DNA from: Candidatus Poribacteria bacterium
GTDB lineage: Bacteria; Poribacteria; WGA-4E; WGA-3G
Length of the DNA stretch: 50,539 bases
NCBI GenBank assembly: GCA_028820845.1
Contig: JAPPII010000114.1
Span: 175,508-226,046 of the forward strand
Direction: 5' to 3'
Part shown: piece after piece, positions 38,728 to 50,283 of the stretch
Numbering within the stretch: position 1 is the first letter of the stretch
Layout of the letters: each line of letters starts with the position of its first letter
Position numbers and translations under genes: made by a program
Notes under the pieces: generated by a model
Databases searched by the model: none
What the model saw: the letters and a program-made list of their open reading frames with translations, nothing else
Told to the model about the DNA's origin: nothing

Positions 38728-39891
38728 TTACATCGTCTCCACAGCGGGATCGCAAGCAGCCCGTAAGATGTTTATCGCAGCGTTTACGTCTCTATCGTGG
38801 TGAGAGCCACATTCGGGACATGTCCACTGTCTATCAGAAAGAGAAAGATTTTTGTTGTGATACCCACAATCCGAACACGGCTTTGTCGTCGGTGTCCACT
38901 GTCCCACAGGACGATATTCACGATTATGTTTGAAACACTTGAACTTCAATATCTCAACAAACTGTCCAAAAGCAAGATCAGAGACTTTGCGTCCCCAAAG
39001 ACGTTTCATACCTTCAAGGTTCAGCGTCTCGGTGGCTATCAGGTCAAACCTTCGGCACAGGTCTGTGGCAAGTTTGTAGTGCCAGTCTTTGCGCTGGTTG
39101 ACAACTTGCTGATGGAGTCGTGCCAATCCTCTGACGGCACGCCACCAATTGTGAGACCCTTTGATTTTACGAGAAAGGCTTTTGTTGAGGGTTTGAAGTT
39201 GTTTCAAGGACTGTTTCAGGAATTGGGGGGATTGTATTTTCTCACCGGTGTTGAGAGTGAGAAAAGCGTCTTTCATGCCGAAGTCTGCGCCTACACTTTC
39301 ACCCGTAGCGGGCAGGACTGCTTTAGAGGCATCATCGGTCACGACATAGAGCCAGTAGGTCCCAACACTGTCGCGAAGGATCTGGATATAATACACTTTA
39401 CCTTTCCACTCACGATGTTGGTGGAAAGAAAACCAACGTTTATTGAACTTAAAGGATTGCGAAGTGTCATCCCATGCTTTGAAAGAGATACGGACGCGTT
39501 CTTCTTCCAAAAGATAGGCAGATTGAAACTTCGCAGAACGATAACGGTCTTTGCGTTTGAACTTTGGCATACCGACTTTTCGACCACCATGTTTTTTGAA
39601 ATCAAAAAACTTTTCCCAAGCAAGATGCAAGCGGATAATCACAGCGTCAAGGGTGTCCCGCGGTATCCATGCCCAGTGTTTTTTCGTCCGTTGGAGCAAA
39701 TCTGTCAAATGCGGTTGCAGGCGATAGCGTCCGGCATATTTACCATAGATGCGGTAATAGCGTTTCTCCAACTTCAAGAAGTGGTTATGCACATCAGCAA
39801 GGTCGTCAAGCATATTGCCCAAACGTTTGTTTTTCGGATGTTCGCGTATCTGGTATTTGTAGGTTCTACGATGCTGTTTCTGTTTTTTCAT
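38728..39891 (-). CDS. tnpB: TnpB, RNA-guided nuclease of IS200/IS605 family
   Basis: 387 aa, full length. RuvC-like catalytic residues: Asp203 in VGADFGMKDAF, Glu288 in ATETLNLEGM and Asp368 in HHDRDVNAAINI. The zinc-binding insert has CSDCG (339, 342) and CPECG (358, 361). The N-terminal part (about 1-190) is basic and helical with the usual WAWIPRDTLDAVI segment. All active-site residues are intact, so the nuclease may be active. A -35/extended -10 promoter lies 90 bp upstream. A 375-codon frame on the other strand is a shadow. Confidence 0.95.
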   Translation of the reverse strand: MKKQKQHRRTYKYQIREHPKNKRLGNMLDDLADVHNHFLKLEKRYYRIYGKYAGRYRLQPHLTDLLQRTKKHWAWIPRDTLDAVIIRLHLAWEKFFDFKKHGGRKVGMPKFKRKDRYRSAKFQSAYLLEEERVRISFKAWDDTSQSFKFNKRWFSFHQHREWKGKVYYIQILRDSVGTYWLYVVTDDASKAVLPATGESVGADFGMKDAFLTLNTGEKIQSPQFLKQSLKQLQTLNKSLSRKIKGSHNWWRAVRGLARLHQQVVNQRKDWHYKLATDLCRRFDLIATETLNLEGMKRLWGRKVSDLAFGQFVEILKFKCFKHNREYRPVGQWTPTTKPCSDCGYHNKNLSLSDRQWTCPECGSHHDRDVNAAINILRAACDPAVETM

Positions 39892-42374: not shown

Positions 42375-42428
42375 GTTGTCAGTCGTCAGTACGGATTACT
42401 GCGTAATCCTTTCAGTTATCAGTAACCC
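42375..42428. repeat. Heptamer-periodic repeat, locus 10, with hairpin
   Basis: GTTGTCA, GTCGTCA, then a hairpin GGATTAC-TGC-GTAATCC (42393-42409), then GTTATCA, GTAACCC. It follows the hslU stop and could weakly terminate transcription. Confidence 0.7.
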
Positions 42429-42477
42429 CAATTGCTGCTTAACAGTCTATGCTACAACAAGTGTCCGAGGGTCTCTG

Positions 42478-43683
42478 ATGGTTTCCAAAAGCCGAAAACT
42501 GACGGCATACACATTTCACCTTTTTACCCTTCTATTCGTTTATGCTTTGTTCCTACCCAGCGGCTTCGCGCGAGATGGGATACAATGGCGCGTGCCTGAT
42601 AGTGACGAGGTATCCCTCGGCGCAACGACCCTAAATGCTATAACCTTTTCCCCGGATGGTTCGCAAATCGCTGTTGCAAGCCCAAACGGTATTGCATTAT
42701 ATGACACTTATAGTGGAAATACTGTAACGTCATTCCCCATTCTGGTAGACGATGTAATCGCGCTTGCGATTTCACCTTCCAGCGAGAAGGAGGGTGGGCA
42801 AACGGTTGCGGTTGCGAGTGAGGAGGGGATTGTTCATCTCTGGAACGCGCGAACGGGTGAACATAGCGCAGATTTCATAGGACACACCGATCCGGTTGTG
42901 GCATTGGCGTTCTCGCCAGATGGTAATACGCTCGCCAGTGGGAGTTTCAGAGAGATTCGCTTGTGGAACTTAACCTCGGAGCAAACCGCCCGTCATGCTG
43001 TCCTTCAGGGGCATCGGGATATGGTTACCACATTGGCATTCTCACCAGACGGTAGAACACTTGCGAGCACCAGTTTTTACGGCACGATTTTGTTGTGGGA
43101 TGTGGGAACCGGTCAACTCCGGCACAGTCTCTCAGCGCACACCGATTCAATTCAGGCACTCGCCTTTTCGCCCGACAATGAAATTTTAGCGAGCGGTAGC
43201 TATTGGCACCCGGACGCGAGAAGCACAATCCGTTTGTGGAATCCACACACCGGGCGGCTGCTTTCGACGTTTGAAGACCACATCACACCCGTTTTTGCTT
43301 TAGCGTTCTCACCAGATATTCATAGTGGAACACTTGCCAGTGCGGGTTGGGGTAACAGCGTTCGTTTATGGCATCCGCAAACCGGGCAATTACAAGCGGC
43401 TTTTGAAGGTGATGCTGCCCCGATTGTTGCTTTGAGATTTCTGCCGGATGCTGATGGCGGTATACTGGCGAGTGCGAGTCTTGATGGGACAATCCAACTG
43501 CAGTCTCTGACACGTGTGCAGATACCTGCGGATGTCAATGGAGATGGTGTTGTCAATATTTTGGATTTAACCTTTGTTGCTTCGCGTTTTGGAGAGGCTT
43601 CACCGGACCTCAACGGTGATGGTATCATAAACATTCTGGATTTGATGCTTGTTGCGAACCATTTCAACCAAGAATTGGAGTAA
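42478..43683 (+). CDS. Secreted WD40-repeat protein with dockerin-like C-terminus (1)
   Basis: 401 aa from the ATG at 42478 (GAGGG upstream). Signal peptide (about 8-30). Six to seven WD40-like repeats of about 42-45 residues with the pattern V-ALAFSPDG-LASGS-IRLWN make a beta-propeller. The last 55 residues hold two EF-hand-like loops (DVNGDGVVNILDLTFVASRF and DLNGDGIINILDLMLVANHF), the layout of type I dockerins. No cohesin is seen in the window. A partial R1 repeat (TATGCTACAA) lies just upstream. It shares architecture and much DNA identity in the dockerin with the next gene, 3 bp downstream. Confidence 0.9.
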   Translation: MVSKSRKLTAYTFHLFTLLFVYALFLPSGFARDGIQWRVPDSDEVSLGATTLNAITFSPDGSQIAVASPNGIALYDTYSGNTVTSFPILVDDVIALAISPSSEKEGGQTVAVASEEGIVHLWNARTGEHSADFIGHTDPVVALAFSPDGNTLASGSFREIRLWNLTSEQTARHAVLQGHRDMVTTLAFSPDGRTLASTSFYGTILLWDVGTGQLRHSLSAHTDSIQALAFSPDNEILASGSYWHPDARSTIRLWNPHTGRLLSTFEDHITPVFALAFSPDIHSGTLASAGWGNSVRLWHPQTGQLQAAFEGDAAPIVALRFLPDADGGILASASLDGTIQLQSLTRVQIPADVNGDGVVNILDLTFVASRFGEASPDLNGDGIINILDLMLVANHFNQELE

Positions 43684-43686
43684 AAA

Positions 43687-45810
43687 ATGCAAAAATCCCA
43701 GTTTTTCTTTTTTCTTATTGCTCTGCTGTTGACCTTAGTATTATTTTTACCCGAAGGTTTCACTGAAGATTCCACACGGTGGCATTTACCTGAAACTGCC
43801 AGCGCGCGCCTCGGTATAGGCGACGCTACTGATGTCCAGTTTTCGCCGGATGGAACACAAATTGCCGTGGCAAGTTCCATAGGCATCTGGCTTTATGATG
43901 CGCAGACCTATCAAGAAGTCGATTTACTCACCGATCATGTGCGTGGCATCCATTCGTGTGTGTATTCGCCGGATGGGACGATACTTGCGGGTGGTGGAAT
44001 GGACGGAACAGTGCTCTTATGGGATATTTCCACGAAACAACTCCTCACTACGGTTAAAGGACATGAATGGTGGCGGCGGGTCATAACACTGGCGTTTTCC
44101 CCGGACGGTAGAACGCTTGCGAGTGGGGCGGATTATGAGGATGTCGTTCAGTTGTGGGATGTCCCTACCGCCCAACATCGTGGAGCCTTTGAAGGACACG
44201 CAGGTGTCACGGTTGAAGGACGCGGGGGAGGTGTCACGGCTGTAGCGTTTTCCCCGGACGGTCGAACGCTTGCGAGTAGCAGTCGGGATGGCATGATTCG
44301 GTTATGGGATGTCGCTACGGGTGAACACGACGCTATTCGCGTGGGACCTGAAGTGTTGACGCTGGCGTTTTCTCCGGACGGTAGAACCCTTGCGAGTGGA
44401 GATAGAGGTAATAGAGTTCAGTTGTGGGATATGGACACGCGCCAGTCGCGCTGGAGTTTTATTGAACCTACAGAGATTGTTTCTGCGGTTGCCTTCTCAC
44501 CGGATGGAACACTTCTTGCCAGTGAGGGTGAGGATAACGCAATTCGCTTGTAGGATGCAAATACACATCGGCAGATAGCAGTCCTTACGGCACATACCCG
44601 TCCCATCCTTTCTCTGGCGTTTTCCCCGGATAGCAGAACCCTTGCGAGTGTGGGTGAAGATAATACGGCTCGGTTGTGGGATGTTAATAGGCTGTCGGCA
44701 CCGAATACTATCTATACCGAATCTAAGGCGATTCTCCATGCAAACTTAGGATATATTACGGCACTTGCGTTCTCGCAAGATAGTAAGATGCTTGTGAGTG
44801 GGAGCGAGGACCGTGTCCTACGTGTATGGGATATAGGGACAGCAAAAGTGCAGGAATCCTTCATCACTGGGGATACGCGTTGGATTCGAGCAGCGACTTT
44901 TTTATCAGATGGTGTGGCTTTTGCCAGTACAGGTGGGACTGACAGAGACGTGCATCTCTGGCGTGCAAGGGGTGGGACGCTGGCACACCTCACGTTGCAA
45001 CACGGGTCTGTCAGCACAACCACGAGGTTCTCTCCCAACGGTAGAACCCTTGCAACTGTGGATGGATTGAATGATGTTATTCTCTTATGGGATTTAACAA
45101 CCGGGGCGCAGTTGACGACGTTTGAAGGGCATATACATTGGATTTTTGAGTTAGCGTTCTCACCGGATGGCACAACCTTAGCAAGTGGCGGCGGGGATAG
45201 CGCGGTTTTGCTGTGGGATGTCGAGTCAGGACAACGCCTTGCGACCCTTGGAAAACAGGACGTAACTCAGGGGAGTAGGGATGATGTTTATGCGTTAGCG
45301 TTCTCACCTGATGGTAGAACCTTAGCGAGTGGGGGCGCGGACGGACTGATTCAGCTATGGGATACGGATACAACACAACGGCTTTCTACCCTGACAGGAC
45401 ACGCAATTGCGGTTGACGCGTTAGCATTTTCGCCGGATGGTGGAACGCTTGCGAGTGGTGATTGGGACGGCACCATTTTTTTCTGGGATGCAACGACTTT
45501 CCGGACGCACGATATTCAAGAACCACCTACTGCTATCCTCAAGGGACATACAAGTGATGTCGAAGAATTGGCATTTTCGCCGGATGGTAGAATGCTTGCG
45601 AGTGGAAGTTGGGACGGCACTATTCTTCTATGGGATTTTACGCCTGTCTTGACACAAACTCCTACGGATGTCAACGGAGATGGCGTTGTCAACATCTTAG
45701 ATTTGACCTTTGTTGCTTCGCGTTTTGGGGAGAATTCGCCGGACCTTAATGGTGATGGTATCGTCAACGTTTTGGATTTGGTACTCGTTGCCCAGCGCAT
45801 CGGGGAATAG
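43687..45810 (+). pseudogene. Secreted WD40-dockerin protein (2), interrupted by an in-frame TAG
   Basis: One continuous frame of 708 codons apart from a TAG at 44551-44553. The TAG sits where every repeat has Trp (IRL-stop-DANTH against RLWD in neighbouring repeats), so it is a TGG to TAG change. Before it: a signal peptide (about 3-22) and five to six WD40 repeats (288 aa). After it: six to seven more repeats and a dockerin-like EF-hand pair. The second part has an internal ATG at 44650 but no good ribosome binding site. Possible reasons are a recent nonsense mutation, a sequencing error, or readthrough. GGAG at the end of the upstream gene serves the start. Confidence 0.85.
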
Positions 45811-48527: not shown

Positions 48528-49205
48528 ATGAAGAAAATAAAGGATATGTCCTGCGCTGAATTATGTGTCCTCCTACAGAGGCTTGTTTCTGAGTCCATCC
48601 TTGCTTCGCGCGAACGGCTGCTTGTATTGCTCAGTGAACACAGTTCACCGAAAAACAGGGAGCGATTGGAGACAGAATTCCGCGAATTCTTCTGCGGATA
48701 TGAAAGTCTTGCCTTATGGTTGGAGGAATACGAAGAGGATCCACTTGACGGGTTGGATATGCATACTTCAGTCGCTAAGAAGTTAAAGCGGCATCGCGAA
48801 TATATCCTCACTAATCGCAAGACGACGCTGGAGGAACGGATGGTCCGCCGAATGGGAGGCTACCTCAAAAGCGATCCAATGCCAGAAAAGAAAATCGCCG
48901 AGTTGCCAGAAGCGGAATATCGGAAATTGCTGCATGCGTTGGTTAATCAGGAACTCTTTATTGTCCACGCGAAGGTTACCTTGCTGCTCAAAGAGAATCT
49001 GCCCTACCAGAAATTATCGGAGGCATTTCGGGAGTTTTTCGTTGCGTATGAACTCCTGGAACTCGCGCTGGAGGACTATCACTACGATCCCGATGAGGGA
49101 TTGGAATTGCGTCCAGAGGTCGCCGAAAGGTTAGAGCAAAGCGTTGCTGAAATTGAAGCTGGGACGGCTGAAGTGATTCCGCTTGAGGAAGTTGCCAGAG
49201 TCTAA
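48528..49205 (+). CDS. Internally duplicated helical protein, 225 aa
   Basis: Unknown function. AAAGGAG lies 7 nt before the ATG. Two halves of about 100 residues are related: EFREFFCGYESLALWLEEYE, DPLDGLDMHTSVAKKLKRH in the first and AFREFFVAYELLELALEDYH, DPDEGLELRPEVAERLEQS in the second. Each is all-helical and acidic, ending in a short linker. The end (AEIEAGTAEVIPLEEV) resembles the C-terminus of some antitoxin or small regulatory proteins, but no partner toxin is present. It is in a tight operon with PhyH upstream and the fusion protein downstream (15 bp). Confidence 0.72.
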   Translation: MKKIKDMSCAELCVLLQRLVSESILASRERLLVLLSEHSSPKNRERLETEFREFFCGYESLALWLEEYEEDPLDGLDMHTSVAKKLKRHREYILTNRKTTLEERMVRRMGGYLKSDPMPEKKIAELPEAEYRKLLHALVNQELFIVHAKVTLLLKENLPYQKLSEAFREFFVAYELLELALEDYHYDPDEGLELRPEVAERLEQSVAEIEAGTAEVIPLEEVARV

Positions 49206-49220: not shown

Positions 49221-50261
49221 ATGAAAGTCATCTGTACCGGCATCAGTTGTTCGGGACGCAAGGAGTTAATGGCAGATTTCGCGACCTTCTGTGTGCAAAA
49301 AGGGCTGAATATCGGTTTCTTTAATGTCGGGGACTTTATGCGCCAAATCGGGGCGGAATCCCACGTTGATTTTACGGAAAAGGTGCTTGATTCGGATCCA
49401 GCGGTTCTATCGTTAGCACGGCGGACGGCTTTCTATGAAATCGCGCAACTCGCTGCAGATTATCAACATGCTATTATCGGATTGCATGCCTCTTTTCGGT
49501 GGCGTGGCAGTCTCCTTGAAGGATTCTCTTACAAGGATATTGAAATTATCCAACCCGACATGCTCATCAACGTTGTTGATAATATCACCGATATATCGGA
49601 ACGGATGGAACAGTCTGTGCAATGGTCAGGCACTGGGAAAGCGACCCTCAATGTCTGGTTGGATGAGGAAGAGTTCCTGACTCGGCAATTGGCACAACTT
49701 ATTGAGAAACCCTATTACGCTGTCGCTAAACAACACGATCTCGAAAATTTCTATGAACTCCTCTTTTCGCCGAGGAAGCCGGTCTTCTATCTCAGTTATC
49801 CAATTACGCTCTTAAGTGACACCCCAGAGGAGATTGAGAAAATCCGTGAGATGGGCGAACGGTTGAGTCGTTCGTTTATTGTCTTTGACCCGCTCTCTAT
49901 TAAGGATATGGCACTCGTTACCCGCGCGAAAGTTGATGGTGCTGACCCGCTGAACCTGCCCCCAACGATGAGTGAGATGGATGATGATGTGATTGAACAG
50001 ATTAAAACGCGAACGATTTCGCGGGATTACCAATTTATCCACCAGAGCGATTTTGTGGTCGTTCTCTATCCTACGGACAAATTGTCACCGGGTGTGTTGA
50101 GTGAAATGAACTACGCTTCCCGTTATAATAAACCGGTGTATGCGGTTTACAGTGAGACGCGGAGTATCTTTTTTGAGAATTTGTGTGAACGGATTTTTGA
50201 TACCTTTGAGGAGCTTGAAGACTTTTTGTGCGAAACGTATCGGATAAATGAGGTGAAATGA
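49221..50261 (+). CDS. Two-domain protein: adenylate-kinase-like plus nucleoside 2-deoxyribosyltransferase-like
   Basis: 346 aa. Residues 1-185 resemble archaeal-type adenylate or NMP kinases: KVICTGISCSGRKEL in the P-loop place, FFNVGDFMRQIG (NMP-binding), QPDMLINVVDNITDISERME and YYAVAKQHDLENF. The P-loop is degenerate (GISCSGRKE, no Ser/Thr after Lys). Residues about 186-330 resemble the 2-deoxyribosyltransferase/DNPH fold: VFYLSYPITLL, SDFVVVLYPTDKLSPG and SEMNYASRYNKPVYAVY, with Glu295 in the usual nucleophile place. This suggests sensing or hydrolysis of a nucleotide. AAGGAGG lies 9 nt upstream of the ATG. Domain calls rest on motif pattern alone. Confidence 0.6.
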   Translation: MKVICTGISCSGRKELMADFATFCVQKGLNIGFFNVGDFMRQIGAESHVDFTEKVLDSDPAVLSLARRTAFYEIAQLAADYQHAIIGLHASFRWRGSLLEGFSYKDIEIIQPDMLINVVDNITDISERMEQSVQWSGTGKATLNVWLDEEEFLTRQLAQLIEKPYYAVAKQHDLENFYELLFSPRKPVFYLSYPITLLSDTPEEIEKIREMGERLSRSFIVFDPLSIKDMALVTRAKVDGADPLNLPPTMSEMDDDVIEQIKTRTISRDYQFIHQSDFVVVLYPTDKLSPGVLSEMNYASRYNKPVYAVYSETRSIFFENLCERIFDTFEELEDFLCETYRINEVK

Positions 50262-50283
50262 TACCTATATGGAGGAAGTTGAT

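Follow-up and report, generated by a model that had tools for sequence, protein, structure and literature searches.

A predicted nucleotide N-glycosidase joined to a degenerate adenylate-kinase domain in Poribacteria and three other phyla

Among the closest described counterparts of the protein reported here are DNPH1 (Rcl) and MilB. The accessible parts of the published reports give the DNPH1 triad as Y24, D80 and E104, with the phosphate held by S98 and S128' (PMC10603095), and list Ser87, Gly89 and Glu93 of rat DNPH1 as contacting phosphate or ribose (PMC3834327). In MilB, according to the available portion of the report, Asp78, Ser97 and Gly99 contact hmCMP, the E103A mutant is inactive, and the F17Y mutation changes the specificity from CMP to dCMP (PMC4081090). 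Two structural families are also related, the nucleoside 2'-deoxyribosyltransferases (NDT; PF05014; 7o62 and 7m5h) and the archaeal adenylate kinases (AdkA; 6pjw, 6ln3 and 7owe). At the level of gene clusters, the nearest described systems are the SPU-type microcompartment loci of nucleic-acid catabolism; those that contain DeoC and RpiB are believed to handle what is left when DNA is broken down, as stated in the accessible text of two reports (PMC8217296, PMC4207490).

Here, we analysed a stretch of 50,539 nucleotides (the window) from a Candidatus Poribacteria genome (G000; 5.69 Mb in 125 contigs), corresponding to positions 175508-226046 of contig C114. The gene of interest, hereafter F, lies at 49221-50261 of the window on the forward strand, as do all of its parts given below, and its single open reading frame, stop codon included, encodes a fusion protein of 346 residues. 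The N-terminal half (residues 1-184; 49221-49772) has an archaeal adenylate-kinase fold and appears pseudokinase-like, and the C-terminal half (residues 185-346; 49773-50258) has an NDT fold. Both halves are recognized by Pfam above the curated cut-offs, with AAA_17 in residues 7-132 (E 9.6e-7) and Nuc_deoxyrib_tr (PF05014) in residues 231-316 (E 4.6e-7; 30.4 bits against a cut-off of 28.8). A sequence profile of F that included distant members also matched archaeal adenylate kinases, with an E-value of 3.2e-7 for 6pjw, while the sequence matches of the C-terminal half alone to solved NDTs are weak (E 0.05 for 7o62 and 0.38 for another). Elsewhere in the window, 42376-45810 encodes WD40-type repeat proteins that, judged by sequence, end in dockerin-like DxNGDGxxNxxD repeats, and a gene with a CxxC...CxxC motif at 38728-39891 on the reverse strand is presumably TnpB-like.

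The AF2 model of F, calculated from an alignment of 54 sequences, has a mean pLDDT of 87.6 and consists of two separate folds, with residues 239-251 below 50. It supersedes a first model from 47 close sequences, which had a pLDDT of 70.8 with residues 228-275 below 50. Comparison of the predicted model by VIA-align revealed that residues 1-182 resemble the adenylate kinase of Methanococcus igneus (6pjw) with a Z-score of 23.0 and an rmsd of 2.2 over 181 aligned residues, and that archaeal adenylate kinases occupy ranks 1-13 of the structure matches (Z 19.6-23.0). Residues 184-341 of the same model match the NDT 7o62 (Z 13.9, rmsd 2.3, 128 aligned residues) and 7m5h (Z 13.5). In addition, human DNPH1 was found among the Foldseek matches in the form of its Y24F mutant (8rqd; E 5.1e-5, TMt 0.69). 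The original prediction of a fusion between an adenylate-kinase-like and a deoxyribosyltransferase-like domain is thus upheld by one reading frame, Pfam matches to both halves and Z-scores of 23.0 and 13.9, and structure prediction, which had been proposed as a check, yielded models with the two folds named.

Conservation was assessed in two alignments. The first (A1, 47 sequences) contains F of the window, a second copy from the same genome (L004) and 45 of 62 named loci. Three loci were dropped from it, as the range ran beyond the stop codon (L025), the match spanned an interrupted 5' copy upstream (L037) or the gene was cut at a contig end (L045), and 14 others were omitted to limit the size, irrespective of any result. 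The second (A3, 54 sequences) combines F of the window, L004, 40 of the A1 loci and 12 sequences from other phyla.

Four residues of the C-terminal half are proposed to form a glycosidase active site. Tyr190 (49788-49790), which lies in the domain's first strand (residues 188-192), is proposed as the equivalent of DNPH1 Tyr24 and MilB Phe17, and Asp269 (50025-50027), which pairs with an Asp of 7o62, as that of DNPH1 Asp80 and MilB Asp78; both are identical in all 54 sequences. Ser289 (50085-50087), likewise found in 54 of 54, is the proposed phosphate-binding residue corresponding to Ser98 of human DNPH1, Ser97 of MilB and Ser87 of the rat enzyme. The proposed nucleophile Glu295 (50103-50105; DNPH1 Glu104, MilB Glu103) is kept in 53 sequences, the sole exception being a Lys in the second copy of the source genome. 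Asp277 and Gly291 are also present throughout. The Glu and Asp that the second domain had been said to keep are therefore found, as Asp269 and Asp277 in every sequence and Glu295 in all but one.

The spacing of Ser289, Gly291 and Glu295 (+2, +6) is the same as that of Ser97, Gly99 and Glu103 in MilB and of Ser87, Gly89 and Glu93 in rat DNPH1, and the Ser-to-Glu spacing equals that of Ser98 and Glu104 in human DNPH1, by the residue numbers given in the accessible parts of those reports; the Asp-to-Ser spacing is 20 in F as compared with 18 in DNPH1 and 19 in MilB. The residues of the putative Tyr-Asp-Glu triad of F are conserved, and their pairing with that of DNPH1 comes from spacing, profile alignment to 7o62 and 7m5h and fold rather than from residue-level superposition. 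F shares with DNPH1 and MilB the fold (TMt 0.69 for 8rqd) and the Tyr, Asp, Ser, Gly and Glu, whereas both of those proteins are described, in the text available, as dimers, and F carries a kinase-like half and the poorly predicted stretch 239-251. MilB, being 170 residues long in the same source, has no second domain.

F shares with the NDTs the Pfam family, the fold and the catalytic Glu, but the position of Ser289 is an Asp in both 7o62 and 7m5h. The Asp of NDTs at this position contacts the free 5'-OH. Given Ser289, the conserved Ser-Gly-Glu spacing and the Asp in the two NDT structures, a monophosphate substrate is predicted for F, and Tyr rather than Phe at position 190 favours a 2'-deoxy substrate. 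It is fairly unlikely that the substrates are instead free nucleosides, F being a true NDT or a nucleoside hydrolase whose kinase-like half serves as a scaffold. The best fold match of the C-terminal half is titled 2'-deoxyribosyltransferase (7o62), and the salvage cluster of one phylum, described below, includes thymidine kinase and nucleoside phosphorylases, both in keeping with free nucleosides; against them stands Ser289, invariant in 54 sequences and equivalent to the phosphate-binding Ser of DNPH1 and MilB, where the NDT structures have Asp.

The P-loop position of the N-terminal half (residues 7-15; 49239-49265) reads GISCSGRKE in the window, and the claim that the P-loop is degenerate is confirmed, as none of the 54 sequences has a canonical Walker A motif. 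The motif is odd but fixed rather than decaying within A1, since Gly7, Gly12, Arg13 and Glu15 are invariant in all 47 Poribacterial sequences. The whole nonapeptide is identical in 39 of the 54 sequences, and the remaining Poribacteria vary only at residues 8, 11 or 14. Outside Poribacteria it is replaced by GISCSEKGI, GISCSSSKE, GISKIDKVP and others, with no conservation between phyla. No F sequence among the 54 has Ser or Thr at P-loop positions 14-15. The position of the kinase DTH motif, located by alignment to 6pjw (residues 87-94; 49479-49502), reads GLHASFRW in the window and lacks the Asp, which is absent from all 54 sequences, the aligned residue being Gly, Ser or Thr in each of them; His89, Phe92 and Trp94 at this motif are invariant. 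Across the four phyla, Lys54, Asp57, Arg67, His89, Phe92, Trp94, Asp120, Trp146 and Glu150 are invariant or kept in at least 90% of the 54 sequences.

Methanococcal adenylate kinases without the Walker Lys are active kinases. The P-loop of 6pjw aligns as GVPGVGGTT, so that loss of this Lys alone is no proof of a dead kinase, and the assignment for F rests on the losses of the Ser/Thr and of the DTH Asp as well. F has the fold of the archaeal enzymes over residues 1-182, with a profile E-value down to 3.2e-7, but differs from them in these two losses and in the fused second domain. A bifunctional F, in which the N-terminal half has remained a nucleotide kinase, albeit one whose P-loop is unusual, would agree with a kinase fold that is complete and well predicted in the model and with the missing Lys of the methanococcal enzymes, but we consider it very improbable, given the absence of the Ser/Thr and the DTH Asp in 54 sequences and a P-loop that is not conserved between phyla. 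We infer from the residues that the N-terminal half is a pseudokinase with a ligand site or interface of its own, which may serve as a sensor or equally as a scaffold.

F was matched in 69 of 84 Poribacteria genomes (E <= 1e-5) and in 50 of the 55 more complete ones. By family, it was found in 56 of 58 genomes of f1, all 11 of f2 and f3, none of three of f4 and two of 12 from the remainder of the phylum, so that 67 of the 69 genomes of f1, f2 and f3 carry it. Among the 69 matches, the one in G050 spans residues 1-101 only, and those in G012 and G030 have one stop each within the matched range. A short-peptide-pattern scan of the genome collection, which detects close relatives only, returned 62 named loci, all from Poribacteria. 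In a wider sample, F was found in 72 of 386 genomes, four of them outside Poribacteria (303 of the 386 genomes lie outside the phylum). Three other phyla have F in 6 of 7, 2 of 4 and 4 of 54 genomes. The identities to F of the window are 46-47% in the phylum of G180, 39-40% in that of G096 and 34-36% in that of G181, and all 12 sequences from other phyla cover both halves. In the tree of F, the Poribacterial sequences form one supported clade (100/99), and the deep joins have long branches and are unsure.

The source genome contains a second copy of F on contig C60 (L004:5589-6629), which is 78% identical to that of the window and groups with its clade. This copy carries E295K, R264C and R268W and lacks RimK over the 7.8 kb that follow it; it is a decaying or repurposed F. 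At five other loci, a short partial F start with 18-42 matched codons lies 0.4-1.3 kb upstream of F (L017:9227, L018:8604, L033:146, L037:10001 and L048:9343), and similar fragments were seen upstream of F in G035, G040, G042 and G044 and on another contig in G041. The arrangement at the five loci would fit the insertion of an element into the 5' end of F, with F restored in the process.

The genomic neighbourhood of F in Poribacteria is marked by a RimK-family ligase. Among the 63 loci with F called as an ORF, RimK is within reach in 52; it lies downstream in the same orientation as F in 51 of these and on the opposite strand in one (L053). Measured by the longest ORF, the gap between F and RimK is 8-141 bases in 23 loci; in the others it can be as wide as 4,048 bases, often with other ORFs in between. 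Of the 11 loci without RimK, five have less than 1.7 kb of downstream sequence and six have more than 7 kb; two of these six, L004 and L050, are second copies in genomes with another F. The upstream neighbours vary by family, with an SppA-type peptidase and PhyH in one and an outer-membrane-type gene in another.

At the window locus, F is preceded by a peptidase S49, a PhyH protein and a gene of 225 residues (cluster c31; 48528-49205, forward strand), which occurs in 4 of 64 compared loci and lies outside the conserved unit. Downstream follow a repeat gene, a PemK-like toxin gene and RimK, which starts 1180 bases after F, the last two beyond the window. The operon is not made up mainly of otherwise unknown repeat proteins, as had been supposed, in view of the peptidase S49 and PhyH genes upstream and the PemK-like and RimK genes downstream. 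The ORF of the neighbouring gene with a 41-residue repeat starts at 50269 and runs in the window to 50538 on the forward strand, and two repeat copies are seen in L005, from another assembly of the same species (after 10171). This count holds for L005, as in the source genome a run of 100 N lies inside the repeat from the base after the window's end; the gene was also located at L003:3777-4594. The window part of the gene has no significant match in Pfam. Lying between F and RimK just before the PemK/MazF-like toxin gene, it resembles, by position only, an antitoxin in which a motif is doubled.

An alternative is that the C-terminal half is catalytic but that F acts mainly as a regulator, the N-terminal half being a ligand switch or F controlling or partnering the adjacent RimK in Poribacteria. 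The same-strand order in 51 of 52 loci, with 23 short gaps, the persistence of RimK while the upstream genes change between families, and the N-terminal residues conserved across phyla are in line with it. However, a tblastn search at E 1e-5 found no RimK in the available flanks of the 12 non-Poribacterial loci, which come from three phyla, and RimK is missing from the six Poribacterial loci with more than 7 kb downstream, two of them second copies. In addition, RimK occurs in 78 of the 84 Poribacteria genomes (E 1e-50) versus 69 for F, so it does not need F. We consider a mainly regulatory F decidedly unlikely. As a long shot, one may imagine an ancient cross-phylum enzyme whose dead adenylate kinase senses the nucleotide (energy) state and switches the N-glycosidase, and which in Poribacteria is wired to the protein-tailing ligase RimK, so that cleaning of the nucleotide pool and glutamylation of ribosomes or proteins would answer the same signal. 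No paper on RimK in Poribacteria was found in the literature searched.

The original prediction also allowed for a defence-type effector. That F depletes nucleotides upon infection is hardly credible, even though a nucleotide-cleaving type of domain is joined to a sensor-like one and GmrSD and toxin-antitoxin-type genes lie beside F in some loci. In the neighbourhood analysis, which had been advised for finding defence genes, these genes varied from locus to locus, and RimK was the constant neighbour. F matched none of the PADLOC models and none of 72,556 plasmid and 50,697 phage records at E <= 1; the C-terminal half alone gave two plasmid matches at E 2-4, taken as chance. A profile scan of viral contigs gave 27 pattern matches, none of them a relative, and a search of a viral structure library with the first AF2 model returned proteins with a single NDT or kinase domain, as well as longer alignments whose TM-scores were poor, with no clear viral fusion. 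The near-core distribution in three families (67 of 69 genomes) and the single clade of the Poribacterial copies also argue against a defence effector, and this part of the prediction was not borne out.

A different context was found in the phylum of G181 and G319. Genes for a pyrimidine (thymidine) phosphorylase, HPRT, deoC, F and btpA lie on one strand in this order in all five loci with full flanks (L104, L105, L118, L119 and L120), and a sixth on a 3.3-kb contig (L121) shows the phosphorylase end, HPRT, deoC and F, so that F is in a nucleoside-salvage cluster in six of the six loci seen. Uridine kinase, thymidine kinase, rpiB, adenosine deaminase and a purine-nucleoside-phosphorylase-type gene lie within about 8 kb in four of the five full-flank loci and were not found in the available stretch of L104; phosphopentomutase is near F in three. 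The gene names come from NCBIfam and Pfam at a single locus, L120. In neither of the other two phyla did the available flanks of F contain any of the ten salvage genes sought. In the phylum of G180, a deoxyhypusine-synthase-family gene lies directly upstream of F (L102:8049-9140 and L122:10821-11912). In that of G096, a gene that appears sigma-factor-like and a second small gene precede F (L103:3838-5045 and L124:10499-11709), and the end of the second overlaps the start of F, as would be expected of an operon.

Microcompartment shell genes occur on some of these contigs. In the G181/G319 phylum, four of six genomes carry the main BMC shell gene set on the F contig, at a distance of about 36-58 kb, and five of six have a weaker single BMC-domain gene 15-25 kb from F on the other side. 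This phylum resembles the SPU-type loci in that F is surrounded by deoC, rpiB and nucleoside phosphorylases and that most genomes have shell genes on the F contig. It differs in the distance between F and the main shell genes, which in G390 adjoin an aldehyde dehydrogenase and a class II aldolase; in G000, searched as the single Poribacterial genome, both BMC genes lie on contigs other than that of F. The DeoC encoded at L120:7874-8737 and its relatives show, by sequence, a conserved N-terminal extension with a Cys-rich stretch, possibly a microcompartment-targeting (encapsulation) peptide. The accessible text on Poribacteria with a microcompartment and deoxyribose (PMC4207490) contains no description of F. 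Outside Poribacteria, deoC was found in G388 and G096 but not in G180; within the phylum, it was found in one of ten genomes searched. Deoxyribose catabolism via deoC was therefore rejected as a general role of F in Poribacteria.

Taken together, we propose with moderate confidence that F is a putative (deoxy)nucleoside 5'-monophosphate N-glycosidase of the DNPH1/MilB type behind a catalytically dead adenylate-kinase domain. In the proposed mechanism, the C-terminal half would hold the nucleotide phosphate via Ser289, Glu295 would attack C1' with Asp269 as the acid and Tyr190 in a positioning role, the base would depart and (deoxy)ribose 5-phosphate would be freed, the Tyr favouring the 2'-deoxy form. 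The N-terminal half would no longer transfer phosphate and most likely retains a pocket for a ligand other than ATP, an oligomer interface or both, by which it could tune or organize the hydrolase. In the phylum carrying deoC beside F, the product would feed deoC and rpiB, and in Poribacteria, mostly without deoC where searched, cleaning or turnover of the nucleotide pool would be likelier. Several observations count against the proposed glycosidase: nine of ten Poribacteria searched lack deoC, RimK gives no pointer to nucleotide salvage, the sequence matches to solved NDTs are weak, the Asp-to-Ser spacing is 20 as against 18 or 19, and two phyla show none of the ten salvage genes in the available flanks of F. 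Salvage or pool cleaning nevertheless fits better than defence, and F is likely to have a housekeeping role in recycling nucleotides, not one in fighting viruses. Of the idea that a nucleotide-binding domain is joined to a nucleotide hydrolase for salvage or defence, the architecture and the salvage part are thus supported by structure, residue conservation and the salvage context of one phylum, and the defence part is not.

Both halves of F are known folds, and the literature searched, whose coverage leaves out most subscription journals, yielded no account of a nucleotide N-glycosidase fused to a pseudokinase. The fusion is near-universal in three Poribacterial families and recurs in three other phyla, among sponge-associated and other little-known bacteria. 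If the proposed function is correct, an enzyme with a built-in nucleotide-kinase-like domain would join a family that is known chiefly through human DNPH1 and through members in antibiotic pathways. Should the pairing of F with RimK be functional, nucleotide metabolism would be linked to protein glutamylation. The proposed glycosidase would also provide a testable step of nucleotide turnover for several candidate phyla.
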